DNA of 64,000 nucleotides from Nonomuraea aurantiaca (GTDB lineage: Bacteria > Actinomycetota > Actinomycetes > Streptosporangiales > Streptosporangiaceae). Of the stretch, positions 20,769 to 36,515 are shown piece by piece. Positions within the stretch are counted from its first letter, which is position 1; every line of letters begins with the position of its first letter. The notes beneath the pieces are model-generated. The model worked only from the letters and a program-made list of their open reading frames with translations. It was not told the DNA's origin and ran no database searches. The position numbers and the translations under genes are program-made. The DNA lies in the NCBI RefSeq assembly GCF_020215705.1, contig NZ_JAIWNB010000013.1, positions 1-64,000 on the forward strand. The letters are read 5' to 3'.

Positions 20769-20819
20769 TCGCTTGGCCACCGATCTTCGCTGTCCGCCAT
20801 CGGTCATGGCGCGCCCGTC

Positions 20820-22034
20820 TTGATCGCCCTGGCCGTCGCCGGATGGATCGCGGTGGGCATCAAGCTGTTCCACCTCCGCGCCAAACCCGGCTGCCGGTCG
20901 ACGCGGTGGATATGCGCCGCGTTGCTGGCACTCTCGGTGTCGATCTGCCTGCAGGACCAGACCGTCCACGAAGTGCTCGACGCCCACACGACGCTCAACA
21001 CCGCGGGCACCCTCTCCAACTGCTTGACCTTGATCGCCGCGACATCCGGGCAATGCGCCTTTCTCTACATGGTCTATCCGGCTGAGCAGGCCGTACGGAG
21101 CACCAGGGTGCGTCTGCGGCTGCTGGCCGGCGTCCTGGCACTGATCGGCGTCCTTCACGTGACGACCCCGTCGAACTACGCGGTGGCCCTGGCCAGCCAG
21201 CAGCTGGCCGTGCAGATCCCGGTGATCTCGGCCGGCGCCTACGTCTATGTCGCCTATCTGGCGTTGACCGTCACCGAAGTCGCGCGCGCCACGCACTACC
21301 GCGCGAGTGCCGCGAGAGGCTTCTCCCTCCGCAACGGCCTGCGGCTGCTGTTGCTCGGTCTCGCCTGCACCCTCGCCTATGCCGGGCTGCGGTTCGCCGC
21401 CATGTCCGCCCACCTTCTCGGATGGGACGTGCGGTGGCTGTACGGCAACCTGATCGGGGAGGTGTTCCGCCTCGCGATCCTGTTCGTGGTGACCGGCATC
21501 CTGCTGCCCGTCACGGGCCCGCGGCTGGGCCTGGATCATCTCGCGCGGTGGTGGTCGCTCGACCGCTCCTATCGCCGGCTCTTCCCGCTCTGGAAACCGC
21601 TGTACGACGCGTTCCCGGCCATCGCCCTCGATCCGCCGAGGACCCGGCACGTCGATTTCCGGAATCCGGAGCAGGCCCTGTACCGGCGGATCGTCGAAAT
21701 CTGGGACGGCCGCCTGCGGCTCCTCCCCTATTTCGACCCGCGCCTCGCCGAAACGCGGCAGGCGCAGGCCACGGGCCTGTCCGATGACGCGCGCAAAATC
21801 GCCGTCGAGGCCGCTCTGATCGCCTCCGCCCTGCGGCGCAGCAGGCTCGGCGTACGACCGGACACGGGCGGCCCGGCCATCCCCGACAACAGCCCGGCCG
21901 ACCCTGACGCCGAGCTCGACTGGTTGATCCGGGTGGCGGCGGCCGTCAGGGCCGAACCAGAGACCTCACAGCGGCCGGAGTCGCTCAGCCCGCGGTCGAG
22001 TGGTCTCCTTCCATCGCGGCGCCGAGCCCTGTGA
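20820..22034 (+). CDS. MAB_1171c-type multi-pass membrane protein (DUF6545-like C-terminus)
   Basis: About 404 aa from TTG at 20820, with no clear ribosome site. Translation may be coupled to the XRE gene, which ends 51 bp upstream in the same frame. Roughly seven membrane helices occupy residues 1-235 (for example VLALIGVLHVT, ISAGAYVYVAYLALTV, GLRLLLLGLACTLAYAGLRF, AILFVVTGILLPV). The soluble C-terminal region has WWSLDRSYRRLFPLWKPLYDAFPAIAL and LYRRIVEIWDGRLRLLP, features of MAB_1171c family putative transporters. These are often encoded next to XRE and ImmA/IrrE genes; their function is not known. The last 50 bp overlap the opposite-strand gene at 21985. Confidence 0.82.
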   Translation: MIALAVAGWIAVGIKLFHLRAKPGCRSTRWICAALLALSVSICLQDQTVHEVLDAHTTLNTAGTLSNCLTLIAATSGQCAFLYMVYPAEQAVRSTRVRLRLLAGVLALIGVLHVTTPSNYAVALASQQLAVQIPVISAGAYVYVAYLALTVTEVARATHYRASAARGFSLRNGLRLLLLGLACTLAYAGLRFAAMSAHLLGWDVRWLYGNLIGEVFRLAILFVVTGILLPVTGPRLGLDHLARWWSLDRSYRRLFPLWKPLYDAFPAIALDPPRTRHVDFRNPEQALYRRIVEIWDGRLRLLPYFDPRLAETRQAQATGLSDDARKIAVEAALIASALRRSRLGVRPDTGGPAIPDNSPADPDAELDWLIRVAAAVRAEPETSQRPESLSPRSSGLLPSRRRAL

Positions 22035-22338
22035 GGCTCGGATACACACTGACGCCTTCCGCGATGGCCTCCAGCTGGAAGACGCTCACCGACGTGGGCG
22101 GGTAGCCGATGAGCTCGATGACGCGGCTCACCCGGGCGGGCCCGTCCATGGCCTCGGCGGAGTCCCAGAGGTAGACCGCCCCCCAGGTCTGGCGGGCCGG
22201 ATTGGAGAACCACGCCTTCAGCCGCATCCCGTCAAGCGTGGCGTAGGCGTCGACGGCGTAGTCCCGCAGGTAGTCGCGCAGGCTCTCCACGGTCTCCGTG
22301 GATCTGCTGAGATCCCAGGCGACGATCGATACGAACAT
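21985..22338 (-). CDS. Small alpha-beta-barrel-like protein at the end of the thiopeptide operon
   Basis: 117 aa. ATG at 22338 follows GAGAGG and starts 11 bp after the YcaO stop, so it belongs to the operon. It reads FVSIVAWDLSRSTETVESLRDYLRDYA, then GMRLKAWFSNPARQTWGAVYLWDSAEAMDG. This ferredoxin-like pattern with V.LW.S.EA resembles YdhR or antibiotic-biosynthesis-monooxygenase folds. No cofactor residues are evident. It may be a tailoring or accessory protein. It is not part of the thiomuracin core set. Its 3' end overlaps the convergent membrane-protein gene by 50 bp. Confidence 0.65.
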   Translation of the reverse strand: MFVSIVAWDLSRSTETVESLRDYLRDYAVDAYATLDGMRLKAWFSNPARQTWGAVYLWDSAEAMDGPARVSRVIELIGYPPTSVSVFQLEAIAEGVSVYPSLTGLGAAMEGDHSTAG

Positions 22339-22349
22339 GGCCGGCCTCT

Positions 22350-24296
22350 CTACGGGAAGGCGTGCGGGTGCGGGTTGACGTCCTGCGGCTCCAGGGGCCG
22401 ATCCCGGTATCCGAGCCGGTACGGCACCTCGTACAACCTCGGCAGACCGTCGACCCGCCGGTAGTCGTGGCCGAAGGTGACCGGCAGGGTGCCGGGGATG
22501 ACGACCTTCACGCAGGCCAGCTCGGACACCTCGTGCTCGGGGGTCGTCTGATCCACCACGATGACGTCGAGACCGGTGCCGAGGTAGCGGTTGACCAGCT
22601 CGATCAGGTCGTCCCGGAGATCGGCGTTGCGGAGTCCCGGCGGCACCGGAAGGTCATCGATGTGCCGCCGCCGTGGCGTCTGGGTGAGGAAGCGCAGCCG
22701 GTCGTACGTCCGGTGGTCGCCGTACAGCAGGCGATGATCCTCCATCTCCTTCACCAGCGACGAGTCGTCCACCATCCGGCCGGTCTCGTCCACGTGGTCG
22801 GGATAACGCTTGATGAGGTCGGCGAGGAGCGGGCCGAGCTCGTTGAGCGCGTTCTCGATCGCGCGTTCCGGGACGGGGTGAGCGCCCGCCGAGCAGGCGG
22901 CCTTCGGGCGCTTCTCGTCGTCGCCGGGATCGACGGCCATCGCCCAGACGCAGGGGATGCCCTGTTCGAGGGTGGTGTCGAAGAGCATCACCTGGTAGCC
23001 GGTCTCGGCCTCGATGGCTTCGATGATCAGGGGGATCATCGAGTCGCGGGCGGCGGTCACGTCGATCCGCGGGACCGGCATGCGCGCGTACCACGTCATC
23101 ATGAAGGCGTCGCGCTCGGCCACTTCGAGGATCCCGTGGAAGACGGCCTCCTCCAGGCTGCCGCCCAGGGCGCAGCCGTTGGAGACCTCCTGGACGAACG
23201 GCGGGCGGCCGGCGTCGTGGTGGCGGGCCCGGTAGTAAGCGTAGGTCTCGGGGACCAGCACGGGAGCGCAGCGGGCGAAGGAGTATCCCCAGACCCAGCG
23301 GCACACCTGCTCCTCGTCGAACGGGCGGTACGGGAAGCCGGGGATCCGATGCCGCTCCGCCGGATAGAGGCCGAGTGTCCGGGGGTCGATCGCGTCGCGG
23401 CCGATCTCGGCGTAACTGGCCGACACCGTGGTGCGCTTTCCCCCGGGCTCCATGCCGCCGTGCCGCTCCAGCGTCTCCAGCATCGCGGTGACCTGGCTGC
23501 CCTGGTAATTGCGGGTACGGCCGAAGCCGTACTCGGTCGAGCCCTGGCGCAGACCCATGGGCGCCGCGGCGACGACGATGCCGCCCTCGGTGCTCTTGAG
23601 CACGGATCGGATGAGACCGCTCTCGCCGTCGACGTATCTGGCCTTGAGCGTGTCCACCTCGCCGGTCATCGAGCGGAGCCGGTAGACGTCCGGGGCCGGT
23701 TTGGGGCGGGATCGGAGGGAGATGTCCGCCCGCGACCGGTCGTCGGGCGGCAGCGTCCCGCAGGTGTCACAGAGCGGGTCGGGCAGGAACGGGTGCGGCT
23801 CGACGGCCAGCGTCTCCAGGTCCACGTAGACGAAGGCGGACCTCGTACGCGCGGTCTCCCGGTTGGCGAGCCGGGCGATCTCCGCCACGACCAAGGTGGC
23901 GGCGAGGTCGGCCGACAGTCCGGTGAGCCAGGCCGACGGCAGCGCGGACAGGGTGGCCCCCTGCTCTCGCCACACCGTTTCGTGCCCGTCGGGCTGGAGA
24001 TGGGCCAGTCTGCGCCGGAACTCGCCGCAGTCCACGCAGCCGGGCAGCCCGGACTCCTCCAGGGGACCGAGGACGACCCGCCCCAGTTCGGCGCGTACCG
24101 GCAGCCAGGGCACGCCCGCCGCCGCGGCGGCGGCTCTGACCTCGGCGTAGCCCGACAGGTCCCAGCGGTCATGGGCCACGACGGCCGCGACGGCACCGGA
24201 CGTCAGGAGCGGCGAGACGGAGGATCCGCTGCCGGACAGCGCCGCGACGATGCTCTCCACGAGCAGCCCTTCACCGAGGACGGCGATCTCAGGCAT
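22350..24296 (-). CDS. Thiopeptide YcaO cyclodehydratase (TbtG-like)
   Basis: 648 aa. It forms thiazoline and oxazoline rings from Cys/Ser/Thr of the precursor, using ATP, together with the partner protein encoded upstream. Residues 1-200 are a reduced E1/ThiF-like region with two Cys pairs (CVDC near 87 and CDTC near 194) that likely bind zinc. The YcaO domain follows: QEVSNGCALGGSLEEAVFHG then ILEVAERDAF carries the conserved Glu/Arg/Asp ATP-binding core, with further motifs at SACSAGAHPVPERAIENALNE. The protein ends PHPHAFP, a Pro-rich C-terminus like the PxPxP tail needed by azoline-forming YcaO enzymes. ATG at 24296 overlaps the upstream gene by 8 bp. Confidence 0.9.
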   Translation of the reverse strand: MPEIAVLGEGLLVESIVAALSGSGSSVSPLLTSGAVAAVVAHDRWDLSGYAEVRAAAAAAGVPWLPVRAELGRVVLGPLEESGLPGCVDCGEFRRRLAHLQPDGHETVWREQGATLSALPSAWLTGLSADLAATLVVAEIARLANRETARTRSAFVYVDLETLAVEPHPFLPDPLCDTCGTLPPDDRSRADISLRSRPKPAPDVYRLRSMTGEVDTLKARYVDGESGLIRSVLKSTEGGIVVAAAPMGLRQGSTEYGFGRTRNYQGSQVTAMLETLERHGGMEPGGKRTTVSASYAEIGRDAIDPRTLGLYPAERHRIPGFPYRPFDEEQVCRWVWGYSFARCAPVLVPETYAYYRARHHDAGRPPFVQEVSNGCALGGSLEEAVFHGILEVAERDAFMMTWYARMPVPRIDVTAARDSMIPLIIEAIEAETGYQVMLFDTTLEQGIPCVWAMAVDPGDDEKRPKAACSAGAHPVPERAIENALNELGPLLADLIKRYPDHVDETGRMVDDSSLVKEMEDHRLLYGDHRTYDRLRFLTQTPRRRHIDDLPVPPGLRNADLRDDLIELVNRYLGTGLDVIVVDQTTPEHEVSELACVKVVIPGTLPVTFGHDYRRVDGLPRLYEVPYRLGYRDRPLEPQDVNPHPHAFP

Positions 24297-26358
24297 GGGT
24301 CAGCACCACGTGGACGGTGTAGGGCATGATCGAATGAACCTCACGATCGTGGTCGAGGGGCACCGCCACCGGCGAGAGACCGCGTCTGGCCAGCGCGGAC
24401 ACCAGACTCGCCGAGCCGGTACGGGAGGCGACGGGCAGGCGGCGGATCGCCGAGCCGCGCAGCCCGGCCGGTATGCCAGGCGGCGCGGGTGGCGCGTAGG
24501 CGGGCTGGGCGTTCTGCCGCGCCTGGTAGTGGAGGAGGGCCTGTTCGAGCGCGCCGGTCACGGCTTCGGCCGCCGACGACCCGCCGGCGTATCCGACAGG
24601 CGTGTCACCCAGGTAACTCATGGCGGCCGGAAGCTCCGACGGCCCGGTGAGGTCGTAACACGTGACCGCCTCGCCGGTGGCCTGGATCATGGACCTGTAG
24701 CGCTCGCCGCGCGGGGGCAGCGACCCGCTGTCCAGGTCGAACCGGGGCAACGGCGTCGTCCGATGCTCCAGGTCGGCGAGCGCCAGCCGTCCCGCCTGCT
24801 CGGCCAGCGCGACGTCTACAGCCTCCTGCCAGCTGTATCCGGCGGCGATGCCCGCAGTGATTCCCGCGCCGATGCCTACAGCGGTCCCCGCGGCGCTGTC
24901 CGGCACGGGCAGCGCGGGGAAGGCGACGTCCGCGGCGATGAGTCGCGTTCCGCCGTCGGCGAGCCGGTGGCCGAGGACGAGCCCGGTGATCCTGCCGGCG
25001 CGCAGGTCCGCGAGCAGGGCGTCGGGGTCGGACTCCGGCGCGGCCAGCGGAGTGCGGCCGTCGGCCGCGAGCAGCCGGCGCGGATCCACCATCAGCGAGG
25101 CGTAGACGGCGAACGCCTTCAGGGCGGCCTGGTGGCGCGCGGACTCGAAGTCGAGCCCCGTGCCGACGACCCTTGAGACGGCGCCGCCGAGCAGTCCGGC
25201 CGGGTCGGGCACCTCCACCTCGCTGACGTGCAGAGGGATCTGCGCGTAGGCGCGCTCGGTCGGCTCCCCGAACACCCCCAGGAGATCGTCGGCGCACACC
25301 ACCGCCCGCCGGGAGAACGCCTCCCGGCCGAGAACGGCGCCGTCGCGGGCCGGGTCGGCGGATCCCGGGAGCATGGGTTCGGCCGGCCGGGCGTGGGGGT
25401 GCGGGACGAAGGCGTGTGACGTACGGCGCAGTGTGGACAGGTCGATCCTGGTCAGCCGGGCACGGTGGTCGTCCAGCAACCCGGTGGCGGTTCGAAAGGC
25501 CAGCTGGACCAGCACCCCGGCGATGGCGGCGGCCCGCGTCTCATCGACGGCGATGGGCGGGCGCGGCGCGGGCCGGGTCGCCACCCGGCGGCGGCCCGCC
25601 GTCCAGCTCGCCTCCGATCGCGTACCGAGGTCCTCGGGACCGAGCCAGACCTCGCCGTCCAGCACGACCGCCTGAGCCAGGGGGATCCTCCGCTCGGCGC
25701 AGAGCCGGTCGAGCAGCGGTTCATGCGCCGAGCCGCCGGAGACGTGCAGAACGAGGTCCGCGCTGTCGAGCAGGGGCAGCAGCCCCTCCTCGCTGAGGTC
25801 GGCGAGGAGGGGCCTCTCGACCCTCTGGTCAGGGGTACGCCGCCCGCGCTCGACCCATTCGACGCCCTGAACCTCCGGTGTCGCCATCTTCACCAGGCGC
25901 GATCCCGTGCGCAAGGCGGCCCGCGCCACCCACGGCACTATGTCCCCCGACCCCAGAACGAGCACCACTTTATCCCGATACGCCCGAAATATCGCGACAG
26001 GCGAGTCTCGGAAATGCGCGATGAACCCCACTTCATGGCGATATTCCGGATATTCCAGGGCGGACTCCTGGTCCCCGGTGCCGGCGTCTCCCACGACGTC
26101 CTGCTGGAGCGGGACGTCTCTCACGACGTCCCGCTCCAGCAGCACGGTGAGCAGGCTCTCCACGGCGGCCCGGCGCTCGGGCGGCAGCTCCTCCGTCAGC
26201 TCGGCCAGCGTGTGCCGCCCGTCGAGATAAGGCTTCAGCAGCTCGATCAGCGGGCCGACGGAGCGGCCTTTCAGATGGCTGGATCCCTGGTACGTCAGCA
26301 GGTACATCCCCGCTGAATCCGGGGCATAGAACGCATCCGGGCGTAGCAGTAGGCCCAC
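24289..26358 (-). CDS. TOMM leader-binding RRE/ocin-ThiF partner protein (TbtF-like)
   Basis: 689 aa from GTG at 26358, 10 nt after AGGAG. Residues 1-80 (LRPDAFYAPDSAGMYLLTY, SVGPLIELLKPYLDGRHTLAELTEEL, VESLLTVLLERDVVRD) are a PqqD-like RiPP recognition element that would hold the precursor leader. Residues about 130-330 form an ocin-ThiF fold with a degenerate nucleotide loop (VVLVLGSGDIVPWVARAAL). The C-terminal half has the YcaO-partner features VGIGAGITAGIAAG and LALADLEHRTTP. In thiomuracin-type systems this protein presents the precursor to the YcaO enzyme. It is translationally coupled to the YcaO gene. Confidence 0.88.
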   Translation of the reverse strand: MGLLLRPDAFYAPDSAGMYLLTYQGSSHLKGRSVGPLIELLKPYLDGRHTLAELTEELPPERRAAVESLLTVLLERDVVRDVPLQQDVVGDAGTGDQESALEYPEYRHEVGFIAHFRDSPVAIFRAYRDKVVLVLGSGDIVPWVARAALRTGSRLVKMATPEVQGVEWVERGRRTPDQRVERPLLADLSEEGLLPLLDSADLVLHVSGGSAHEPLLDRLCAERRIPLAQAVVLDGEVWLGPEDLGTRSEASWTAGRRRVATRPAPRPPIAVDETRAAAIAGVLVQLAFRTATGLLDDHRARLTRIDLSTLRRTSHAFVPHPHARPAEPMLPGSADPARDGAVLGREAFSRRAVVCADDLLGVFGEPTERAYAQIPLHVSEVEVPDPAGLLGGAVSRVVGTGLDFESARHQAALKAFAVYASLMVDPRRLLAADGRTPLAAPESDPDALLADLRAGRITGLVLGHRLADGGTRLIAADVAFPALPVPDSAAGTAVGIGAGITAGIAAGYSWQEAVDVALAEQAGRLALADLEHRTTPLPRFDLDSGSLPPRGERYRSMIQATGEAVTCYDLTGPSELPAAMSYLGDTPVGYAGGSSAAEAVTGALEQALLHYQARQNAQPAYAPPAPPGIPAGLRGSAIRRLPVASRTGSASLVSALARRGLSPVAVPLDHDREVHSIMPYTVHVVLTHA

Positions 26359-26364
26359 GTTCGT

Positions 26365-27783
26365 CTACTCCTGTTCCTCGTCGGCGGGCGGGCTCGGCCG
26401 GCTTCCGAGCATGAACTCGCCCACGCTCGCCTCGATCGCCGGATCGGCTCCCGTGGCCTCGTTGAAGGCCGGCGCGTCACCTCCGCCGAGACCGGAGGCG
26501 GCCAGTCCCATCGCGGTCGCGACCAGGTACATGGTCTGGAAGAGCACCCCGACATGCTTGAGGACCAGCGCGTACGGCATCTCCTCGTACGTCCACATCA
26601 CCCGCCCGAACCTGGCCGACACCACGATCAGGACCTGGGGCAGCGTGGTGGTGGCCGCCGCCCGGCCCGCGGTCGTGAGCAGCCGCCCGACCGCCGGGCC
26701 GGGGTCGCTGACCAGGCGCAGGCTGTGCTCGTGCGCGTCGTAGTGGTACATGCCCGGCGCCAGCCCCGCGACGTTCCGGACGACCGGGTACAACTCCAGC
26801 TCGTCGACCCCGCCGCCGGCGGGACGGGGCGTGTCGACGTACTCCACGCCGTCCCACACGTTGACCCGGCGCACCCGCGCACATCGGTAGAGCAGCTCCG
26901 CGAGCTGATCGACCGTGATCGGGCGGTCGTCGTCGTGCTCGCGGATCGAGCGCCGCTCCTCGATGGCGTCGGTCAACCCGAGGTCGCGCCCGCGGATCTC
27001 GTCCAGGTCCGGCACCCGCAGGTCGATCGCGGGTCCCGGATAGGGTTCCCGGTGCGCGGGGAGCGGAGGGAACTTGCCTTGGCCCCATTTCGTCCGGCCG
27101 AATCCGGCGTCCAAGTAGCCCCCGTTCCCGTTGCGGCTTCGGGAGTGGAACCACAGGTCGTGCGGTCGCCACTGGCGCAGACGCCACTCGGACTCCGCGT
27201 CGCTCCCGGCGGGGATCGCGATGCCGGTCCAGCTCAGATCCCGCAGCAGCCTGGCGATCAGCTCTTCGGGCAACGGGCCCTTCAACGTGCCGGCCGACAG
27301 CGGCCGCGCCAGCTCCGTGAGCATGGCCGCGACTTCCGGGGCATGGATCAGCACCTGTGCCCACGAGGCCGGCGCCTCGGCGAGGATGTCCTCCCCCTCA
27401 CGCCGGAACACCGCGAAACCGGACAGCTTCACCTCGTCGTCGATGTCCTGCTCCACCTCGGGGGCGGGCGGCCGGACGGGCTGCACCGTGTACAACGGCC
27501 TGCCGAGATGGCTCAGCGTGGTCGTCACCCATCCCCCGCTCCGCAGGGCCCCGAGGAAGTCCGGGTCGGACTCACCGATCGCCGTCAGCTCCGACGGCGG
27601 GCACGGCCCCTCGGCCAGGCGACGCAGTACGGCACGGCCGCCCGCGCCCACCGGCCCGAACGAGGCCACCCTCCGCCACAGATCATGACGGAACAGGTGC
27701 AGCTCGCCGTCCGCGCCCGTCGCGCTGTAGACCCCCGGCCGCAGCCGCAGATGTTCCTCGTACGCCGGAGCCTCCCCGGTCAT
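26365..27783 (-). CDS. SagB-type azoline dehydrogenase (TbtE-like)
   Basis: 472 aa. ATG at 27783 has GGAAGTGG just upstream and overlaps the preceding stop (ATGA). An N-terminal region of about 240 residues precedes a nitroreductase/SagB FMN domain: AIEERRSIREHDDDRPITV, LAELLYRCARVRR, RPAGGGVDELELYPVV, GLAPGMYHYDAHEHSL, and LVATAMGLAASGLGGGD. It would oxidise azolines to thiazoles and oxazoles using FMN. The usual (R)RS.R anchor and the PS.GGL..ELY-like motif are present. It sits between the predicted pyridine synthase and the RRE partner, as in tbt. Confidence 0.9.
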   Translation of the reverse strand: MTGEAPAYEEHLRLRPGVYSATGADGELHLFRHDLWRRVASFGPVGAGGRAVLRRLAEGPCPPSELTAIGESDPDFLGALRSGGWVTTTLSHLGRPLYTVQPVRPPAPEVEQDIDDEVKLSGFAVFRREGEDILAEAPASWAQVLIHAPEVAAMLTELARPLSAGTLKGPLPEELIARLLRDLSWTGIAIPAGSDAESEWRLRQWRPHDLWFHSRSRNGNGGYLDAGFGRTKWGQGKFPPLPAHREPYPGPAIDLRVPDLDEIRGRDLGLTDAIEERRSIREHDDDRPITVDQLAELLYRCARVRRVNVWDGVEYVDTPRPAGGGVDELELYPVVRNVAGLAPGMYHYDAHEHSLRLVSDPGPAVGRLLTTAGRAAATTTLPQVLIVVSARFGRVMWTYEEMPYALVLKHVGVLFQTMYLVATAMGLAASGLGGGDAPAFNEATGADPAIEASVGEFMLGSRPSPPADEEQE

Positions 27784-28808
27784 GATCCACTTCCTTCCAG
27801 GTACGCCTCCACGGTGCCGGCGAGCAGATGACACAGGAGAAAGCGCTCGACCGGGACGACGCCGAGCCGGGTCATGTGCAGATAAGTGAGGTTGAGCATC
27901 AGCCGGTACAAGAGGAACTCGGGCGCGTCCCGGATCTCCGCCCACACGGGATCGGCGTAACCCGCGCGATGAAAGGGACTCGACTCGGCCAGCTTCGACT
28001 CCTGCTCGGCGCTGACGGTCGGCACGACGAACGCGCCCTGTTCGAGGAGCCGCGCCCCCCGCCGTCGATACGGGATGAGCGCGGCCTCCCAGTCGGCCAG
28101 CAGGGCGGCGTCCACGTCGTCGCCGCCGAGCACCTCCCGCAGCTGGGCAAGGAGGATCGGGCGGTGTTCGCGGTAGTAGCCGTCCCACGTCGGCCTCATC
28201 CCGCGCGCTTCCGGAAAGGTCGACAGGAACGCCTCGGCGTGGGACCTGAAGGTGAAGTACCCCTGAGAGATGTCGGTGCCCGACAGGCGGTGCGCCGTCG
28301 CCACCATCAGCTTGAACGCCAGCTGCCGCCGTCGCGCGCCGCCCCCGGCCTCGGTCATCGCGAAGGCGAGGTCGGTGGTGTCGGCGTAGAAGTCCGCCAC
28401 GAGGTCGGCCATGTGCGGCCCGCCCAGTACCTCTGTCCGGTCGTCGTACTCGGCGACGCGCAGGGTGTTGTCGGGAAACCACGGCGTCAGAGGGCCGGAC
28501 TCCCGTTCCAGCTCGGCCAGCCGCTGATGCGCGGAGAGCTCCTTCTGGGGGTCGAGCGGCAGGGACGAAGGGCGCTCGGCCAGGCAGCCGCCGATGATCT
28601 TCTCCGCGGCCGGCCGCACCACGTGCGTGAAGGTGTCGTGGTCGGTACGGAAATTGAGCCGCAGATGCGGCCCCTGCCGCCAGTGCCGCGTGTAGTAGAG
28701 CCCCTCCACCTGCCCGGCCAGCTCACGGAAGAGCGGGCGTACGCCGTGCAGGATCAACGGGTCCTTGTCATGGTCGTAGTAGCGGACGTGAATGCTGTTC
28801 CAGCGCAC
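27780..28808 (-). CDS. Predicted thiopeptide [4+2] pyridine synthase (TbtD-like)
   Basis: 342 aa from GTG at 28808 after GGGAG. It is a thiopeptide-type bacteriocin biosynthesis protein of the SpaB_C fold. The start WNSIHVRYYDHDKDPLILHGVRPLF, followed by LYYTRHWRQGPHLRLNF, is typical of the class that catalyses the aza-cycloaddition between two dehydroalanines, closing the macrocycle and expelling the leader. Long helical regions with LPLDP and PFHRAGY are also seen. Assignment as the cyclase rather than the eliminase rests on the second position after the dehydratase (tbt order) and on the YYDHDKD motif. It starts 3 bp after the upstream stop. Confidence 0.8.
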   Translation of the reverse strand: MRWNSIHVRYYDHDKDPLILHGVRPLFRELAGQVEGLYYTRHWRQGPHLRLNFRTDHDTFTHVVRPAAEKIIGGCLAERPSSLPLDPQKELSAHQRLAELERESGPLTPWFPDNTLRVAEYDDRTEVLGGPHMADLVADFYADTTDLAFAMTEAGGGARRRQLAFKLMVATAHRLSGTDISQGYFTFRSHAEAFLSTFPEARGMRPTWDGYYREHRPILLAQLREVLGGDDVDAALLADWEAALIPYRRRGARLLEQGAFVVPTVSAEQESKLAESSPFHRAGYADPVWAEIRDAPEFLLYRLMLNLTYLHMTRLGVVPVERFLLCHLLAGTVEAYLEGSGS

Positions 28809-28811
28809 GGA

Positions 28812-29846
28812 CTATCTCCCCTCATCCGCGAGCACGGCCACCGCGTCCGCGCACAGCCGACGGACGGCCCCCTCTTCGTCCACGGTCACCCCCAGCCGGT
28901 TGCAGACCAGGTGAGCGCAGATGTCCAGAACGGTGAGGACCTGCCGCGTCTTGACCGCGCCCTCCCCCTCCCAGCCTCGGGGCGGTGGCTCGAACCGGCC
29001 GGCGGCGGCCTCGGCGGCCAGCGCGTCACGGAGCGTGGACACCGATCGCGCCCAATCCGCCAGGGAGCCCGGCCCGGAGACGTGCTCCAGGTGCGTGGCG
29101 AGCTCTCTCATCCGGCGAGCGAGCCCGATGACGCGATCACGCTGACGTCCTGCCGGTCGCTCGGCCGGTTGGGTGAAGCGGGCCTCGGCCGCGTCACCAG
29201 GCCGACGGCCCCGGGTCGCGCCGCCAGGCCGACCGGCCTCGGCCTCGTCGCCGGGCCGGTCCTGGTCGATGCTGACCCACGGCGCCAGCCGGGCCGCATC
29301 CTGCTCACCGCAGAACCAGGTGAGCAGGATCATCGCGGCTCCCGCCGTGGTGCGGTCCGCCGGCCGCAGGCCGTCGCGCAGCAGGCCGAGGGCGATGCGG
29401 CTGGACTCCGCGAAGTGCCGCTCCACCGCCTCCATCGAGGCCCCGGTGCCGTAGCGGCCGTGCTCACGCCGGTAGGGGATGAACGCCACGGAATTGTTCG
29501 GGAAGAGCCGCTCCGTATGGCCGGGAAGCCCCTCCCACTGCGCCAGGGCCTCGCCTATGCCGGCATAGTCCCGCTGGCTCATGGACCGACCCGCCGGATT
29601 CTCGGCGAGATACTTCTCGAACCTCACCGAGATGACCCGTTCCACCTCGGCCCGGCGCGCGGGGTCGGTGGGCAGCGCGCGGAACCGCAGATGCGGCCCT
29701 CCGTCCCAGTACCTCAGGAAGAACGCGGCCTCCGCGAGCCCGCGCCCGGCCAGCTCGGCGATCAGCGGACCGGCCGCGTCCGTCAGCAGCCCGTCCAGGT
29801 TCTCGTGATAGAAGACGTGGGCGCTGACCCAGTCCGATTCATGCAT
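28812..29846 (-). CDS. Predicted glutamate-elimination subunit of split LanB dehydratase (TbtC-like)
   Basis: 344 aa. The chosen ATG at 29846 overlaps the LanB stop in ATGCATGA. SpaB_C fold: DWVSAHVFYHENLDGLLT near the N-terminus, then FFLRYWDGGPHLRFRALP, the Arg-containing motif used for beta-elimination of glutamate from glutamylated Ser/Thr. Later RLFPNNSVAFIPYRREHGRYG and LTVLDICAHLVCNRLGV are also family features. A low-complexity Gly/Pro/Arg-rich insert with repeated RPG and GDEAEA-like runs lies near residues 200-240. It acts with the following LanB N-domain protein, because that protein lacks this domain. Confidence 0.83.
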   Translation of the reverse strand: MHESDWVSAHVFYHENLDGLLTDAAGPLIAELAGRGLAEAAFFLRYWDGGPHLRFRALPTDPARRAEVERVISVRFEKYLAENPAGRSMSQRDYAGIGEALAQWEGLPGHTERLFPNNSVAFIPYRREHGRYGTGASMEAVERHFAESSRIALGLLRDGLRPADRTTAGAAMILLTWFCGEQDAARLAPWVSIDQDRPGDEAEAGRPGGATRGRRPGDAAEARFTQPAERPAGRQRDRVIGLARRMRELATHLEHVSGPGSLADWARSVSTLRDALAAEAAAGRFEPPPRGWEGEGAVKTRQVLTVLDICAHLVCNRLGVTVDEEGAVRRLCADAVAVLADEGR

Positions 29847-32529
29847 GCCGGCCGTCCTGGTCAGAGATCTCGATGAGAAATTCGGTGACGCTGGGGTCAT
29901 CGGGGTCCGGCCCCAGCGCGTCCGCGAAGTCGGGCAGCACCTCGTCGAAGATCACCATCGGCCCCGAACTCGCCAGCATCTTCTCGAAGGCCGTGACCAG
30001 GAACCAGTTGGCGAAGTCGACGTAGACGGGCTTGCGGGATTTGTCGAAAATCCACTGCGTCCAGTCCCCCTCGCCCTCACCCTCGTCCGGCCGGGCGAAC
30101 CGGACGAAAGATCGCACCGGGAGGTCGTGCTCGTGCAGCCACGCCACCAGACGCAGCAGGTAGGCGGCGTCGCCCTCGCCCTTGGCCCGTTCCGGAAGCA
30201 TCTCCTTCGGCACGATCCGGCGGGCGCGCTGGATCACCACGCCGCCGATCTCCACGCGGGGATAGGCCACCAACGACGAGGGGAGGTCCAGATCGGTCTC
30301 ATCCGCCAGCAACGGGATGCTGGGATGCACGTAGTGCGTCTCTCCCGAGACCTGGATCAGCAGCCGAGCCGCCGGTGGGAGCAGCAGGTCGGACATCATG
30401 CCCAGATGCAGGGCGGAAAGATCGGCGCCCAGCCGTTCCGAGACCACCTTGAGCAGGCCGCTGCGCGGATCGAGGACCATCTCGAGGTCTCCGAGCGGGA
30501 TGCGCTCTTCGGCGGGACGGCTGCTGACCGCGAACGGATAGTCGATCTCGTACGCCACATGCGGCACCCGTCTGTTCAACGCCGAGGCGGCCACTCCGCC
30601 CAGCTCGGCGAGCACCCGGGCACTCGGCCGACGCTCCGTGGCCTGGCTCTCGCCCGTCGCCTCCGCCATCAGGGCCAGCACCCTGCTCCGTCCACGGCCG
30701 TAACCGGTGTGCGCCGCGTTGAGCACCAGGCCGATCCCGCCGTGACCGGGGACGACCTGCACATAGCAGGCGAGGGAGCGCGGCGGCACCACCCAGGACG
30801 GCCAGTTCTCCGTCAGCTTCCTGATCAGCTCCGCCGGGACGCTCACGACGCCGTCGCTCTCCGGCTGGGCGAGCACCGCCTGACGGGCCTCCCGCTGGAT
30901 CGCGGCCAGCTCCCGAAGCCGTGGGAGCGGGCTCTCGGACAGAGCGCCGCCCGCCCCCAGGGACGGGCCCATCAGCCGGGCGACCTCGCGCGCCGCATCG
31001 CTCAGCTCGGCGGCCTCGCCGTCCTGGGCGAGCACCTCCTGGAGCGCCCGGTGCAGCACGAGGAGGGGAACGCGGGCGTCCGGGCCGAACCGCTCGGAGA
31101 AGTAGGCGCCGAGGGCGATCCGGAACGGCAGCGTCAGATCGAAGGCGCCCAGCCAGCGCCGTACCACGTCCAGGTCGTCGAGCGCCGGACGCCATGCCGC
31201 CGACCCGGCCTCCGCCACCGGGCCCGTGAAGACGGCGTTCTCGCGGAAGGTGTGCCGGCCCTGCCCGTCGAGCGCGGCCGGCTCGAAGCCGAGCGGCTCC
31301 GCCAGGTCGGTGAGCGCGGCTTCCAGTTCGTGCTGCCGCTTCCAGTGCCCTTCGACGTCGTCCACGACCACGGGCAGCCGCGCCTGCCGGCGTACCCGCC
31401 GCAGCGCGTGGACGACGTCCGCGAAGTCGGCTCCCCCATGGGCGGCGACCCAGTCGGCCAGGTCGCCCAGCGGGTCGGCCGACTGGTCGGCGACGGGGTG
31501 CTGCTCCTCCAGGAGCCCGGCCCGCACCAACGCCTGGAGAAACGCCTCGACCGGGGCCGCGTCGGCGGCGCCGCCCGACAGGCGGGAGCGGAGCTCGACC
31601 AGCGTGAGCGGCGGGCGGTGCGCCGCCAGGCTCAGGCACGCCTCGACCGCGGCGGTGGCCGGCAGGCTCACGATGGGTTCCTCGGTGGAGCGCCCAATGA
31701 AGCTGACGGTCCCGTCCTGGAGGGTCGCACTCGGGTTGACCCGCAGGACCAGGTGCCGGGCCAGGCGTGGATCGCGGGTGAGCGTCTCGCCGATCCGCTG
31801 GAGGAGGAAGGTGTGGATCTCGAGCACTCCCTGGATCTCCGCGGGAGCGAACCGTACGGGCGGTTCACCTGGTTCACCTGGTTCACCTGGTTCGCCGTCC
31901 GCCCACGCCCCCGTGCCACTCGCCATGAAGGTGCCGTAGGGGCTCGTCTTGGCGGCCGCTCTCGCCAGGTACTTCGCCAACCGGGCCATGGACTGCCTGC
32001 GCGGTCGCCGCCGCGCGTCCGCCAGCCACTTGGCCAGCTCGCCGAACAGGGCCGGGCTGGCTTGCGACAGTGCCCGGCGGAAGCCCGGATGTCCGGCCAC
32101 GTCACGCAGGACCAGCTCCTTCTCCCGCAGTTCGGCGGCGAACACGTCGTCGAGCGCGCGTCGCCCCTCGTCGAGCCGATGCCTGGTGACGATCCAGGAT
32201 TCGATCGCGTCGCCGATCTCGGCGGGGAGCAGCGCGGCGACACGCGCGTTCCATTCGGTGTCGCGGGGCAGTCGTCGCTGGTGCAGCGCCCGGCGCAGGC
32301 CGACCAGAGCCGGCTTGGCCGTCCCGTGGTCCAGCGCTCCGATCAGGGGATACAGGGCCTCGGACAACGCCTCGCCGTCGCGCCGTAACGTGGCCGCCTG
32401 CCGGGCCAGCCCTTCCGCCCGGCCGTACGCGCCGTCCAGGCGTAGCCGCGACAACGCCGCCACCGGCACACCCGCGACCCGCACCACGACGGACGACTCC
32501 ACGTGGGCGCCGCTCGTTAAGATCACCAT
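29839..32529 (-). CDS. Glutamylating LanB-type dehydratase, N-terminal domain protein (TbtB-like)
   Basis: About 896 aa. It transfers glutamate from glutamyl-tRNA to Ser/Thr of the precursor, the first half of dehydroalanine formation. The lant_dehydr_N pattern is present: VVVRVAGVPVAALSRLRLDG, the helix with ELVLRDVAGHPGFRRALSQASP, LAKYLARAAAKTSPYGTFMASGTG, and GYGRGRSR. It lacks the SpaB_C domain, which is encoded downstream. ATG 32529 (or GTG 32526) follows GGGGAGGAA; an in-frame ATG at 32568 has no ribosome site and lies in a hairpin loop. Codon 4 is a rare TTA (32518-32520), suggesting bldA-type control. Confidence 0.9.
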   Translation of the reverse strand: MVILTSGAHVESSVVVRVAGVPVAALSRLRLDGAYGRAEGLARQAATLRRDGEALSEALYPLIGALDHGTAKPALVGLRRALHQRRLPRDTEWNARVAALLPAEIGDAIESWIVTRHRLDEGRRALDDVFAAELREKELVLRDVAGHPGFRRALSQASPALFGELAKWLADARRRPRRQSMARLAKYLARAAAKTSPYGTFMASGTGAWADGEPGEPGEPGEPPVRFAPAEIQGVLEIHTFLLQRIGETLTRDPRLARHLVLRVNPSATLQDGTVSFIGRSTEEPIVSLPATAAVEACLSLAAHRPPLTLVELRSRLSGGAADAAPVEAFLQALVRAGLLEEQHPVADQSADPLGDLADWVAAHGGADFADVVHALRRVRRQARLPVVVDDVEGHWKRQHELEAALTDLAEPLGFEPAALDGQGRHTFRENAVFTGPVAEAGSAAWRPALDDLDVVRRWLGAFDLTLPFRIALGAYFSERFGPDARVPLLVLHRALQEVLAQDGEAAELSDAAREVARLMGPSLGAGGALSESPLPRLRELAAIQREARQAVLAQPESDGVVSVPAELIRKLTENWPSWVVPPRSLACYVQVVPGHGGIGLVLNAAHTGYGRGRSRVLALMAEATGESQATERRPSARVLAELGGVAASALNRRVPHVAYEIDYPFAVSSRPAEERIPLGDLEMVLDPRSGLLKVVSERLGADLSALHLGMMSDLLLPPAARLLIQVSGETHYVHPSIPLLADETDLDLPSSLVAYPRVEIGGVVIQRARRIVPKEMLPERAKGEGDAAYLLRLVAWLHEHDLPVRSFVRFARPDEGEGEGDWTQWIFDKSRKPVYVDFANWFLVTAFEKMLASSGPMVIFDEVLPDFADALGPDPDDPSVTEFLIEISDQDGRHA

Positions 32530-32550
32530 TTCCTCCCCGAAGCGCCGGAG

Positions 32551-32581
32551 CCGGGCCGCGGGCGCCATGCCGGCGGCCCGG
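32551..32581 (-). promoter_or_regulatory. Hairpin between precursor gene and dehydratase gene
   Basis: CCGGGCCGC (32551-32559) and GCGGCCCGG (32573-32581) are perfect 9-bp arms around a 13-nt loop. It lies 8 bp after the precursor stop codon and before the favoured dehydratase start at 32529. Such a stem, with no T-run, fits a partial terminator or RNA-stability element that lets precursor mRNA exceed enzyme mRNA. It could also hide the alternative ATG at 32568, which falls in the loop. Confidence 0.55.
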
Positions 32582-32588
32582 CCGGGAA

Positions 32589-32777
32589 TCAGCTGCTGCT
32601 CGAGCTCGTCGACGACGTCGAGGTGCTGCAGACGCTCGGGCAGAGCACGGACGCGCCGTTCTCCGCCATCCCGTGGCCCGCGGTCAGAGATTCGATGGCA
32701 AGACCGCTGTCAGCGAGGTCGAAAACGTCCATCGGCAGATTCTTGAGGTCGAAGTCGAGCTTCTGGGAAATGCTCAT
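32589..32777 (-). CDS. Thiopeptide precursor peptide
   Basis: 62 aa from ATG 32777; AAAGG lies 11 nt upstream. The leader (about 1-42) is of the thiomuracin type: LKNLPMDVFDLADSGLA then IESLTAGHGMAENGA. The predicted core (43-62) is SVLCPSVCSTSTSSTSSSSS: two Cys, one Pro, and 12 consecutive Ser/Thr at the end. Ser43 would be the dehydroalanine that enters the pyridine. The residue after it is Val, not Cys, so the usual azole next to the pyridine is missing; lactazole (Ser-Trp) is the nearest precedent I know. Candidates for the second cycloaddition Ser are core positions 9, 11, 13 and 14. It is followed by the complete set of modifying enzymes in one operon. Confidence 0.92.
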   Translation of the reverse strand: MSISQKLDFDLKNLPMDVFDLADSGLAIESLTAGHGMAENGASVLCPSVCSTSTSSTSSSSS

Positions 32778-32898
32778 TTTCTTTTCAGCCTTTCTCGGGA
32801 GAAAATCGTGAGACCCATAGCCGTGCATCATCGGTCCCCTGCTTACCTCCAGGAAACCCGCGGCTGATGGCTTCCGACGGAAGGCTAACCCCGACGCG

Positions 32899-32935
32899 TG
32901 GAGAACAGCCTTTCTCCGGCCTGTCACCGACCTGT
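32899..32935 (-). promoter_or_regulatory. Candidate SARP box and palindrome upstream of the precursor gene
   Basis: On the minus strand GACAGGT (32935-32929) and GACAGGC (32924-32918) are direct heptamer repeats exactly 11 bp apart, the spacing used by SARP activators. Directly downstream is an inverted repeat GGAGAA-6 nt-TTCTCC (32899-32916). The site lies about 140 bp upstream of the precursor start and within the 192-bp gap after the SARP gene. No confident -10 box was found 8 bp downstream of the repeats, so the assignment is tentative. Confidence 0.45.
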
Positions 32936-32969
32936 CGGCGCGCTGAATCGCTTCTTGGAAAGGCCGCTC

Positions 32970-35801
32970 TCACGCGGTGGAGGCGAGCACGGCCTCGATG
33001 TCGTGGGCGCGCGGGTCCGCCAGTCCGGCCATCAGGTCGAGCGCCGTCCGCAGGATGCCGCGGGCCAGCGTGTCGTGTCCGGCCTCGTTGAGCGCGTTGC
33101 CGAGATCGGCGAGGGTGATCGCCTCCCAGCGCTGGTTCCTCATCCGGCGGAACAGGTCGATGGACTGGCGGTAGGCGCGGACGGCGGCGCGGGTGTCGCC
33201 CGTCATGACGTAGGCGCGGCCCAGGTTGCGCAGGCACATCGCGTCGGAGGTGTACTCCCTGAGCCGCAGGTTGATCCGGTGCGCCTGCTGGAACGCCTTG
33301 ACCGCGCATCGGTAATGGCCCGCCACGGTCTGCGCGATTCCTATGTTGTCCAGCGCCAGGGCGATGCCACGGGGATATTCGTTCCGCTCGTGCAGATCCA
33401 GGGCACGCATCAGGTGCCGCTGGGCCTTTCCGTATTCTCCGGCCTCGCCATATGTCATGCCGAGATTGCACAGCGCCATGGCCTCGCCGTACGGACTCTT
33501 GCTCCGCTCGAAATGCACGAGCGCTTCGCGGAAATGTCGCTCCGCCAGATCGACGTCACCCCTGTCGGAATAGATGCAGCCCACGGAATTGAGGGTGTAG
33601 GCCTCGCCGATGGGCTCGTTCGCGGTCCGCGCCGCGCGTACCGCCGACTTCAGGCTGTCCAGGCCGTCGGACCAGGGGATGCGCGCGTCGAAGAAGCTGG
33701 TCATCGCCATGGTTATGCGCCATGAGTAGTGAGCCCACCCGTTCGTGGCCGCCCATGAGGTCACCGCCCGGAGGGAGTCGTACTCCAGCTCCAGCCAGGC
33801 CATCGCCTCGTCGGCGTCGGCGAACGCGAGGGGGCGCCGGCGCGGCCGCATCGGCGCGAGGAAGTCGCGGCGGCGGCACGGGACCAGGTGCTGGTCGGCA
33901 CGCACGGCGGCGAAGAGGTAGTGATCGAGGAATCGCCGTGCGGCGGCCTGCCGCTCGCCGGGCGGCATGTGCAGCCGTGCCTGATCGACGGCGTACAGCC
34001 GGATCAGGTCATGCAGCTGGTAGCGGCAGGGGCGGCGCTGTTCGAGCAGATGGGCCGCCACGAGCTGGTCCAGGCCCCGCTTGACCTCGAATGGCGGAAG
34101 GTCGACCAGCGCCTCGACCGTCTCCAGCGCGATGTCGCTGGCGGGGTGCAGGCCGAGCGCCTGGAACGTGGCGGCCGCCGCCGGGCTGAGCGCTCCGTAG
34201 GACCAGGACAGAACGGCGCGCAGGTCGATGTTCGGATCGTTCTCGCCGGTTCCCAGGTTGTCGAGGCGGGCCTTCTCGTCCGCCAGCCCGTCGACGACCT
34301 CGGCGAGCGTGGCGGCGCGCTGCGCGCGCTCGGCGATGATGGCCAGCGCCAGGGGCAGATGGTCGCACAGCTCGACCAGCCGGGAGGCCGCCGCGGGCTC
34401 GCGGGCGACCCGGGAGGGGCCGACGGCCGCCGCCAGCAGCTCGACGGCCTGGGATTCCGGCATCGGGCCCAGCGTGACACGGTGCGCGCCGTCACGGATC
34501 GACAGAGACCGTAGCTGGTCGCGGCTGGTCACGATGACCAGGCCGCTGGCGCCCGGCAGGAGCGGGCGCACCTGGTCGGCGTTCCGGGCGTTGTCCAGCA
34601 GGATGAGGGCGTGCCGGTCGGCGAGGATGGTACGCAGCAACGCGCAGCGCTCGTCCACGTCGACGGGGATGGCGTCGCTCTCCACCCCGAGACCGCGCAG
34701 GAGGCTCTCCGCCGCGGCGGCCGGGGTCATCGGCTCGCTCGGTCCGTAGCCGCGGAGGTTGAGGTAGAGCTGGGCGTCGGGGTAGTCATGGGCGACTCGG
34801 TGGGCCCAGTGCGCGGCCAGCGTCGTCTTGCCCGTCCCGGGAGCGCCGTCGATGGCCACGATGATCGGGGCGTTCGCGCCTCTGCCGGTCCGGCCCGACG
34901 CCGCCACGCCCGAGGGCAGCCTGTCCAGCGCCGCCAGTTCCTCCTCCCGGCCGGTGAAGCGCGCGATGCCGTGGGGCAGCTGCCGGGGGCTCGGCGTCGC
35001 GCGCCGGACGACCGTGCCGCCCGGGCGGTCGTCGGTGCCGCCCATGAGCACCGCCTGGTGCAGCTGGACCAGCTCTTCGCTCGGGTCCAGGCCGAGCTCC
35101 TCGCGCAGCACCGTACGTACGCGCTGGTAGGCGCTCAACGCCTCCGCCCGCCTGCCGCTGCGGTGCAGCGCGGTGATCAGGCGCGTCCACAGCGGCTCGC
35201 GGCTCGGGTAACGCTTGGTCAGCTCCGACAGCTCGGCGATGAGGCGCCCCGACGGCTCGCTGGCCAGCTCCAGGTCGATCCGGCGCTCGGTGGCGCCGAA
35301 CCACTCCTCGGTCAGGAGGGGTATCACCTCGCGTTCGAGCCAGGGACCACTGGCGTTGCCGAAAGGCTGACCGCGCCACAACCGCAGCGACTCGCGTAAC
35401 AGGGCCATCTCCTCCTCCACGGAGCCGGCGTCGTCGGCGCGGCGCACAAGGCCGCGGAACCGGTGCAGGTCCACCGCGTCGGGCTCGACCTGGAGCTGGT
35501 AGCCGTCCGGCTCGGTCTGGATGAGGTCCGCCCCGATCAGCCGCCGCAGCCTGGTGACATAGGTGTGCACCGCGCCGCGCGGCCAGCCCGGCCCTTCGCC
35601 CGGCCAGAGCCGCTCGGCCAGCGTGGGTGTCGAGACCGACTGGCCGACTGACAGCAGCAACGACGCGAGGACCGTCCGTAGCTGGCCCACGGGTACCGCC
35701 ACCGCGTCGTTACCGACCCGCACCTCCCAGGGCCCCAGGACGCCGAAGCTGATGCCGCCGCCACGCGATTCCACAGCCGTTCCGGATGACGCGCCTGCCA
35801 A
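32970..35801 (-). CDS. SARP/AfsR-type cluster activator (winged helix, BTAD, NB-ARC, TPR)
   Basis: About 943 aa. TTG at 35801 is favoured because GGGAGG lies 7 nt upstream; GTG 35816 is in frame but lacks a ribosome site. Order: OmpR-like winged helix (ISFGVLGPWEVRVG, LRTVLASLLLSVGQSVST, AVHTYVTRLRRLIG; about 15-110), BTAD (about 115-255, ending VLREELGLDPSEELVQLHQAVL), NB-ARC ATPase (Walker A GAPGTGKTT near 320, ALILLDNA), winged region, and C-terminal TPRs (GEAYTLNSVGCIYSDRGDVD, GEAMALCNLGMTYGEAGEYG). It is codirectional with and just upstream of the precursor, so it is the likely pathway-specific activator. Confidence 0.92.
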   Translation of the reverse strand: MAGASSGTAVESRGGGISFGVLGPWEVRVGNDAVAVPVGQLRTVLASLLLSVGQSVSTPTLAERLWPGEGPGWPRGAVHTYVTRLRRLIGADLIQTEPDGYQLQVEPDAVDLHRFRGLVRRADDAGSVEEEMALLRESLRLWRGQPFGNASGPWLEREVIPLLTEEWFGATERRIDLELASEPSGRLIAELSELTKRYPSREPLWTRLITALHRSGRRAEALSAYQRVRTVLREELGLDPSEELVQLHQAVLMGGTDDRPGGTVVRRATPSPRQLPHGIARFTGREEELAALDRLPSGVAASGRTGRGANAPIIVAIDGAPGTGKTTLAAHWAHRVAHDYPDAQLYLNLRGYGPSEPMTPAAAAESLLRGLGVESDAIPVDVDERCALLRTILADRHALILLDNARNADQVRPLLPGASGLVIVTSRDQLRSLSIRDGAHRVTLGPMPESQAVELLAAAVGPSRVAREPAAASRLVELCDHLPLALAIIAERAQRAATLAEVVDGLADEKARLDNLGTGENDPNIDLRAVLSWSYGALSPAAAATFQALGLHPASDIALETVEALVDLPPFEVKRGLDQLVAAHLLEQRRPCRYQLHDLIRLYAVDQARLHMPPGERQAAARRFLDHYLFAAVRADQHLVPCRRRDFLAPMRPRRRPLAFADADEAMAWLELEYDSLRAVTSWAATNGWAHYSWRITMAMTSFFDARIPWSDGLDSLKSAVRAARTANEPIGEAYTLNSVGCIYSDRGDVDLAERHFREALVHFERSKSPYGEAMALCNLGMTYGEAGEYGKAQRHLMRALDLHERNEYPRGIALALDNIGIAQTVAGHYRCAVKAFQQAHRINLRLREYTSDAMCLRNLGRAYVMTGDTRAAVRAYRQSIDLFRRMRNQRWEAITLADLGNALNEAGHDTLARGILRTALDLMAGLADPRAHDIEAVLASTA

Positions 35802-35999
35802 TGCCTGACCTCCCACGGGGACGAGCTACGGACCGCGTTGCCGGCATTTGCCGGGGTATGGATGGTGGATAAACGGCAGTTGCCGCCCTCCTGGTCAATC
35901 TAAGCTAAGACGGGCAGCTGCGTGCTTAAACTTCCGTTGAACCTTTGCGGGCGGCCTATGATGTGGGTGTTGTGGCCGGTACGCCCCATGAGGAGGTTC

Positions 36000-36515
36000 G
36001 TGAGCGGCGAACGCCTGGAAGAGATCGTCGAGCGGCTGGAGATCCCGCATCCGTTCGACATCGTGGAGTTCACCCACCAGGTGGCGCTGGCCCGGCAGCG
36101 CCGCATCGAGCTCAGGCCCGTCGACACCGCCCCGGACGGCCCCAGCGGCATGTGGCTGGCCACCGACGCGGTCGACTTCATCTGCTACGAGCAGCGGACC
36201 AGCCGCAGCCATCAGGAGCACATCATCCTGCACGAGCTGGGCCACATGGTGTGCGAGCACGCGTCGGCGCCGGTCGCCCCCGACGCCCTGCTGCGGATCC
36301 TGCTGCCGACGCTGGACCCGGCCATGGTCCGCTCGGTGCTCGGCCGGACGACATACTCCGAGCCGCAGGAGCACGAGGCCGAGCGGTTCGCGATGCTGGT
36401 GCTGCGACACGCCGGCCGTCTTCCCACGGTGCGCAGGCCGCCGCTCTCGGCCGAGGCGGCCGGGATTCATGACCGTATCGAGGCGGCACTGGCTCCGCGT
36501 ACCAGGTCATCCTGA
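36000..36515 (+). CDS. ImmA/IrrE-type metallopeptidase-like protein
   Basis: About 171 aa. GTG at 36000 is chosen because AGGAGG (35991-35996) is directly upstream; ATG 35988 in frame lacks a ribosome site. The zinc motif HELGH lies in HIILHELGHMVCEHAS, with EHEAERFAMLVL downstream providing a likely third ligand Glu. Actinobacterial proteins of this type are called 'toxin component' and usually accompany an XRE regulator and a MAB_1171c membrane protein. Here that pair lies about 14 kb away, on the other side of the thiopeptide cluster. It is divergent from the SARP gene. Confidence 0.85.
   Translation: MSGERLEEIVERLEIPHPFDIVEFTHQVALARQRRIELRPVDTAPDGPSGMWLATDAVDFICYEQRTSRSHQEHIILHELGHMVCEHASAPVAPDALLRILLPTLDPAMVRSVLGRTTYSEPQEHEAERFAMLVLRHAGRLPTVRRPPLSAEAAGIHDRIEAALAPRTRSS

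Follow-up and report, generated by a model that had tools for sequence, protein, structure and literature searches.

Thiopeptides strongly inhibit protein synthesis in bacteria. Among the described systems, thiomuracin-type clusters (tbt) share with the locus studied here, whose biosynthetic genes are designated A to H, the A–G order and an NF033399-type leader, and proteins B and D of the window (the whole stretch of DNA analysed, 64,000 nt) match the structures of TbtB and TbtD. In contrast, the thiomuracin core, SCNCFCYICCSCS.A, is unrelated to that of the window and contains 6 Cys residues rather than 2, and the thiomuracin-type clusters compared are without gene H (L054; G174 was not among the H matches), which the window has. 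GE2270-type clusters (pbt/tpd) have the leader family and the gene order in common with the window and likewise end in a homologue of H (L055, 38%), PbtH and TpdK being described, with BerI and NocA, as NosA homologues (PMC4525488); their core, SCNCVCGFCCSCSPSA, differs and is 29-membered by the ring rule given below. The berninamycin and geninthiocin clusters resemble the window in their Ser-rich core and NosA homologue (PMC6306032) but, as described, have split E and G genes, a P450 and a precursor of another family. The lactazole cluster (laz), compared by description only, is also compact and has a residue 2 that is not azole-forming (Trp2; Val2 in the window), but covers 9.8 kb, encodes five enzymes for macrocycle formation and yields a 32-membered ring (PMC7210931); lactazole-like clusters made up 251 of the 508 annotated thiopeptide clusters in a study cited there. 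Goadsporin-like linear peptides are made without a [4+2] protein, whereas the window encodes one (gene D).

Nine minus-strand ORFs, genes A–H and R, were found at 21985–35816, where the initial annotation had given eight or nine. Genes A–H (8 genes, 21985–32777) overlap their neighbours or lie no more than 20 bp apart: gaps of 11, 6, 3 and 20 bp separate H from G, F from E, D from C and B from A, respectively, and overlaps of 8 bp between G and F, 40 bp between E and D (with an E start at 27819 chosen within a longer open frame) and 62 bp between C and B (when the longest frame is taken) were observed. The true start of gene C may lie downstream of 29900. The spacing annotated earlier, 3–20 bp or overlaps, applies to A–H and not to the regulator gene R, which is 192 bp from the precursor gene. 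The order of A–G is that of tbtA–G of the thiomuracin type, the precursor is of the NF033399 family, and profile, structure-sequence and tree comparisons agree on the thiopeptide cluster of thiomuracin gene order that had been proposed. When the seven families expected of such a cluster were sought with HMMs, as that annotation had suggested, A–E and G scored above the cut-offs of their profiles and F did not (74.8 bits against 562 for ocin_ThiF). Its seven-gene set tbtA–G is present in full but proved incomplete, as a NosA-type gene, H, is also in the cluster. A frameshift in a core gene, which had been named as an observation that would count against the cluster, was sought and none was seen, B to G each aligning in one piece and over nearly the full length with the proteins of L041, the cluster of a relative. 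By comparison with known pathways, from which the biosynthetic steps are derived, A–H very probably represent a complete thiopeptide cluster that is likely to be working, and its product is probably undescribed.

Gene D (27780–28808, minus strand) is predicted to encode the pyridine synthase, a TbtD-like formal [4+2] macrocyclase. It scored 441.7 bits with NF045556, the NCBI pyridine-synthase equivalog (cut-off 325), with which gene C reached only 85 bits, and structure-sequence comparison matched it to TbtD (5wa3, 1.6e-69) and PbtD (5w98, 6e-53). A tree was built from 52 rows, restricted to C/D matches that scored 100 bits or more over 250 or more query residues and labelled by their best match to the window C or D. 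In it, the 27 C and 25 D proteins were split 100/100, with C and D of the window on opposite sides; those of L054 (thiomuracin-type) and L055 (GE2270-type) fell into the same two groups. The rows are partly redundant, as L044 and L098 are the same cluster and L100 and L101 are near-identical. Residues that do not vary, or hardly vary, across the 25 D rows are retained in gene D; its Y309 is kept in 24 of them, a cut sequence being among the 25, and the aligned PbtD position is Tyr in 5w98 and Phe in PDB chain 8ejz. The possibility raised by the initial annotation that both SpaB_C proteins are elimination proteins was thus ruled out by the equivalog score, the TbtD match and the C/D split in the tree. 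It is D, and not the split dehydratase, that decides the class, because the goadsporin and coryneazolisin clusters also have lanthipeptide-like dehydratases, with the [4+2] protein absent as described in PMC4603692. Of the two marks by which the locus had been recognised as a thiopeptide pathway, the second SpaB_C protein (D) therefore holds, whereas the split dehydratase alone does not. Another pyridine synthase is encoded in the same genome (L095:10701-12581, G000:C67; 441.6 bits with NF045556). It adjoins only a C-terminal LanB-N fragment, and the 20 kb fetched gave no match to a precursor, SagB, YcaO or H; the locus looks like what remains of a cluster.

The putative split dehydratase consists of genes B and C. 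Gene B (29839–32568, minus strand), with a LanB N-domain, would be the TbtB-like, tRNA-Glu dependent glutamylation half; it scored 127 bits with PF04738 (cut-off 28), and its residues 25–902 match the TbtB structure 6ec7 (1.1e-159). Gene C (28812–29900, minus strand), placed by the tree with the C and not the D proteins, is the candidate TbtC-like, SpaB_C-type glutamate elimination half, with 132 bits for PF14028 and 93.2 bits for TIGR03891 (cut-off 48). It carries H330 at the position aligned with Y309 of D, and His occupies that position in the alignment in all 27 C rows. Residues 220–231 of gene C form a Pro/Gly/Arg-rich stretch of about 12 residues which is absent from at least 25 of the 27 aligned C proteins and is an insertion peculiar to this gene.

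The azole machinery is encoded by E, F and G. Gene E (26365–27819, minus strand, start inferred) is a putative SagB-type azoline dehydrogenase (TbtE-like), which scored 140 bits with TIGR03605 (cut-off 78), 62.5 bits with the ThcOx and 51.2 bits with the nitroreductase models, and matches PDB 8pz5, a CyaGox-type SagB (3.7e-63). Gene G (22350–24296, minus strand) is predicted to be a TbtG-like YcaO cyclodehydratase with an N-terminal cyclo_dehyd_2 domain, with scores of 345 bits for TIGR03604 (cut-off 219), 129.7 bits for TIGR03882 (cut-off 37) and 288 bits for PF02624. Neither E nor G is split into a pair; each is one gene of full length. Gene F (24289–26358, minus strand) would be the TbtF-like, ocin-ThiF-like leader-binding protein; its C-terminal part shows weak similarity to YcaO (PF02624, 42 bits). 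Since its score with TIGR03693 (ocin_ThiF) is far below the cut-off, its naming leans on its position and on the full-length match of residues 1–687 to the L041 protein (39%).

Gene H (21985–22338, minus strand, 117 aa), which was missed in the initial annotation, is a candidate NosA-family terminal amide synthase. Among proteins of solved structure, NosA (4za1, 4.1e-30) is its best match, and its K41 and E90 align with the catalytic K49 and E101 of NosA. According to PMC4525488, NosA acts on a Ser-extended precursor to give nosiheptide its C-terminal amide, for which it needs K49, E101 and the C-terminal loop 112–151; most of this loop is missing from gene H, which ends about 20 residues before the end of the NosA loop as judged from alignment and length, a point against the proposed pathway. 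An ordinary YdhR-type mono-oxygenase was rejected as an identity for H, as the Pfam score (22.2) is under the cut-off (27.1) and the NosA match is far better. A NosA homologue with both catalytic residues predicts an amidated C-terminus for the product. In a comparison of 20 distinct cores (the window and 19 relatives, duplicates and low-scoring matches omitted), 7 of the 10 accompanied by H ended in Ser, vs none of the 10 without H (Fisher p 0.003, a guide only, because the rows are related). In G127, included in this comparison, the precursor and H are on different contigs, and G152, G172 and G092 were counted as without H from the family H search, their D lying beyond the fetched stretches. 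Omitted were the remnant L039 (H present, Ser end), L096 (precursor not found) and the clusters without D, namely L049 (no H, Glu end), L097 and L103 (H present, Ser end). The link between a NosA-type gene and a Ser-ending core offers a simple rule by which amidated C-termini can be predicted for clusters related to this one. H matches were found in 37 of the 338 family genomes, and 13 of the 18 best (E 1.3e-31 or better) have a D match within 15 kb; the others are in G166 (a remnant), G295, G129:C11, G062 (L103, which is D-less) and G327.

The precursor gene A (32589–32777, minus strand, 62 aa) scored 76.7 bits with NF033399 (cut-off 29). Its product consists of the leader MSISQKLDFDLKNLPMDVFDLADSGLAIESLTAGHGMAENGA and the predicted core SVLCPSVCSTSTSSTSSSSS. 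The leader aligns with those of the thiomuracin and GE2270 types, whose cores start with Ser after the same GA, and its conserved part ends in ESLTAGHGMAENGA, directly followed by the core. We found the core to be Ser/Thr-rich and not thiomuracin-like: its 20 residues include 2 Cys and 14 Ser/Thr, 12 of the latter being consecutive, vs a longest Ser/Thr run of 6 among the cores of the 19 relatives. It starts with Ser and offers a further Ser with azole-forming residues on either side, as is expected of a thiopeptide core. This core was found nowhere else in the family searches with the precursor and D, the scan of named genomes and the string search of the literature; SVLCPSVC was absent from the papers searched, among which none was recognised as describing the cluster, subscription papers falling mostly outside that search. 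Such a core would put to the test how thiomuracin-type enzymes choose, among equivalent Ser/Thr residues, those that become an azole, a dehydro residue or part of the pyridine and those that are removed, a question of Ser/Thr selection that the usual Cys-rich cores do not pose.

The cluster type is common in its family. NF033399 matches (E 0.001 or better) were found in 43 of 341 family genomes, 35 of them over the cut-off, and D matches, paralogues such as C included, in 110 of 338. An order-level search covered 345 genomes, nearly the same set as the 341. At class level, 394 genomes were searched and 11 had matches, including 4 that do not belong to the family. The best D relatives in the family search are G214, G081 and G294 (55, 53 and 51% identical). 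A scan of named genomes, in which records very near the window's genome were possibly excluded, gave four loci with D 38–40% identical, in Actinomadura oligospora, Actinoallomurus purpureus, Saccharothrix carnea and Thermocatellispora tengchongensis. The record of the last agrees with G322 in contig and match coordinates, which places Thermocatellispora in the family of the window. Five relatives (G081, G167:C19, G289, G257 and G246) are like the window in having the A–H order, Ser-ending cores and an H that is 61–76% identical, whereas their D is just 41–53% identical and their cores contain 3–5 Cys and no Ser/Thr run longer than 6. Several other loci show different arrangements. L044 (G214:C97), whose D is the nearest to that of the window, lacks H and encodes two precursors; these differ in their cores and lie about 0.4 kb from each other on opposite strands. 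In L039 (G166:C1:7391923-7411922), a deletion fuses the start of B to the end of the YcaO gene, and the precursor and H are left. In L049, L097 and L103, a precursor of this family is accompanied by B, C, E, F and G, but the stretch contains no pyridine synthase; L103 has two precursors plus H. The products of these three are possibly linear.

Judging from gene families, gene order, intact frames and conserved residues, and with every chemical step inferred from known pathways, we propose that biosynthesis would proceed as follows. The leader of A would be bound by F (and by B and D). G, with F, would convert the core Cys and some Ser/Thr to azolines, which E would oxidise to azoles, and the other Ser/Thr would be glutamylated by B and undergo elimination by C to give dehydroalanine or dehydrobutyrine. 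D would then join the dehydroalanine from Ser1 to a later one, which would form the pyridine, close the macrocycle and release the leader, and H would take off a terminal dehydroalanine to leave a C-terminal amide.

Ring size was calculated as 3(n-1)-1 for a closure between Ser1 and Ser n, a rule that fits the published descriptions of lactazole (Ser12, 32; PMC7210931), geninthiocin (Ser13, 35; PMC6306032) and pyritides A1/A2 (Ser6/7, 14/17; PMC9247985). Because eight closures with an azole-forming residue on both sides are formally allowed (Ser9, 11, 13, 14, 16, 17, 18 and 19), any ring assignment is tentative. One of the eight is Ser11, which would give the 29-membered closure of the thiomuracin/GE37468 type, in a core with only 2 Cys. 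We give about even chances to a Ser1–Ser13 closure, with a 35-membered ring as in berninamycin and geninthiocin, thiazoles at Cys4 and Cys8, and the 12-residue Ser/Thr tail turned into oxazoles or dehydro residues. Ser13 is favoured because G081 and G167:C19, the closest of the relatives that have Ser-rich tails, and both with H, allow Ser13 at the same position (Cys12-Ser13-Ser14, compared with Thr12-Ser13-Ser14 in the window); it is not supported by the nearest D relative, since the cores of G214, which has no H, allow only Ser14.

Closure at Ser9 would instead give a 23-membered ring in which a Cys8 thiazole and a Thr10 methyloxazole flank the pyridine, followed by an 11-residue Ser/Thr tail. 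Ser9 is the sole candidate that comes after a Cys, like the closures predicted in G081, G167:C19, G289/G257 and G214. However, the same-position comparison points to Ser13, and natural thiopeptides with fewer than 26 members are described as unknown, even if 23-membered ones have been engineered (PMC7210931) and pyritides, with 14 and 17 members, occur naturally (PMC9247985). Closure at Ser9 seems unlikely. It is conceivable, if rather doubtful, that the ring lies outside the natural range of 26–35 members, with 23 at Ser9 or at least 38 at Ser14 and beyond, and carries a long oxazole/dehydroalanine tail that the short NosA-type enzyme trims to the amide, perhaps repeatedly. To our knowledge, a product of this kind would be the first dominated by oxazoles and dehydroalanine from an unsplit TbtEFG-type system.

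A cluster that looks intact but is silent or decaying, yielding no product, would be in keeping with the lone pyridine synthase remnant of the same genome and with the deletion-gutted version held by G166 (L039); as all eight genes are full length and in frame, we consider this quite improbable. Membership of the berninamycin/geninthiocin type would account for a Ser-rich core, a 35-membered ring and NosA-type amidation, and geninthiocin B indeed combines 10 Ser among 15 core residues with the NosA homologue GenI (PMC6306032). Known clusters of that type are nevertheless described as splitting E and G and carrying a P450 that hydroxylates Val, and GenA as annotated to the thiocillin/thiostrepton family, whereas the window has single E and G genes, an NF033399-type leader and no P450 match among the neighbours scanned. 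In addition, the berninamycin core has Cys at residue 2, where the window has Val, and such membership is therefore very improbable. Equally hard to credit is a linear, goadsporin-like azole/dehydro peptide with D inactive, for which the D-less clusters of this precursor type (L049, L097 and L103) and the split dehydratase of goadsporin, described without a [4+2] protein (PMC4603692), could be cited, because D is intact, above the equivalog cut-off and keeps the near-invariant residues of the 25 D rows.

Gene R (32970–35816, minus strand), 192 bp upstream of the precursor gene, encodes an AfsR/SARP-type regulator with BTAD, NB-ARC and TPR parts (PF03704, 119.8 bits; NF053617, 481.8 bits, below the cut-off of 1430), and its position suggests a role in the cluster. 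Neither an exporter nor a self-resistance gene is apparent within the cluster, and no P450 or ABC transporter matches were obtained among the neighbours scanned. These neighbours comprise genes for an RHS-repeat protein and kinases, sugar-acid genes and others of an ordinary kind; a SAM methyltransferase gene at 5569–6390 lies far beyond the RHS gene. A resistance gene pointing to the target was also considered. TSNR_N had no match in the genome (1 of 14 controls was positive), L11 is encoded once, and EF-Tu twice on other contigs, both copies scoring above the family cut-off, a result that is not decisive. The EF-Tu genes (G000:C2:328858 and G000:C57:94785) scored 713.9 and 543.2 bits, one being clearly more divergent, and neither is near the cluster.

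To the left of the cluster, at 20340–22034, are an XRE gene (X) and a DUF6545/MAB_1171c gene (T), and to the right, at 35922–36515, is an M78-like gene (Y). In the other genomes of the genus that contain T, Y lies directly beside T in 8 of 8 and precedes it; X was found in 4 of the 6 such genomes with fetched loci and precedes Y in those 4. Simple insertion of the cluster between Y and T was rejected, since T is on the left and Y on the right in the window, the reverse of the Y-then-T order elsewhere. The cluster lies within a rearranged form of the X/Y/T module. One of the other genomes with T, G182, additionally has a divergent AfsR-like gene. The RHS-repeat protein (10231–19860, 3209 aa) contains laminin-G-like domains and 12 RHS stretches, and its C-terminal end reads, by eye, like a metallopeptidase-type HExxH domain.
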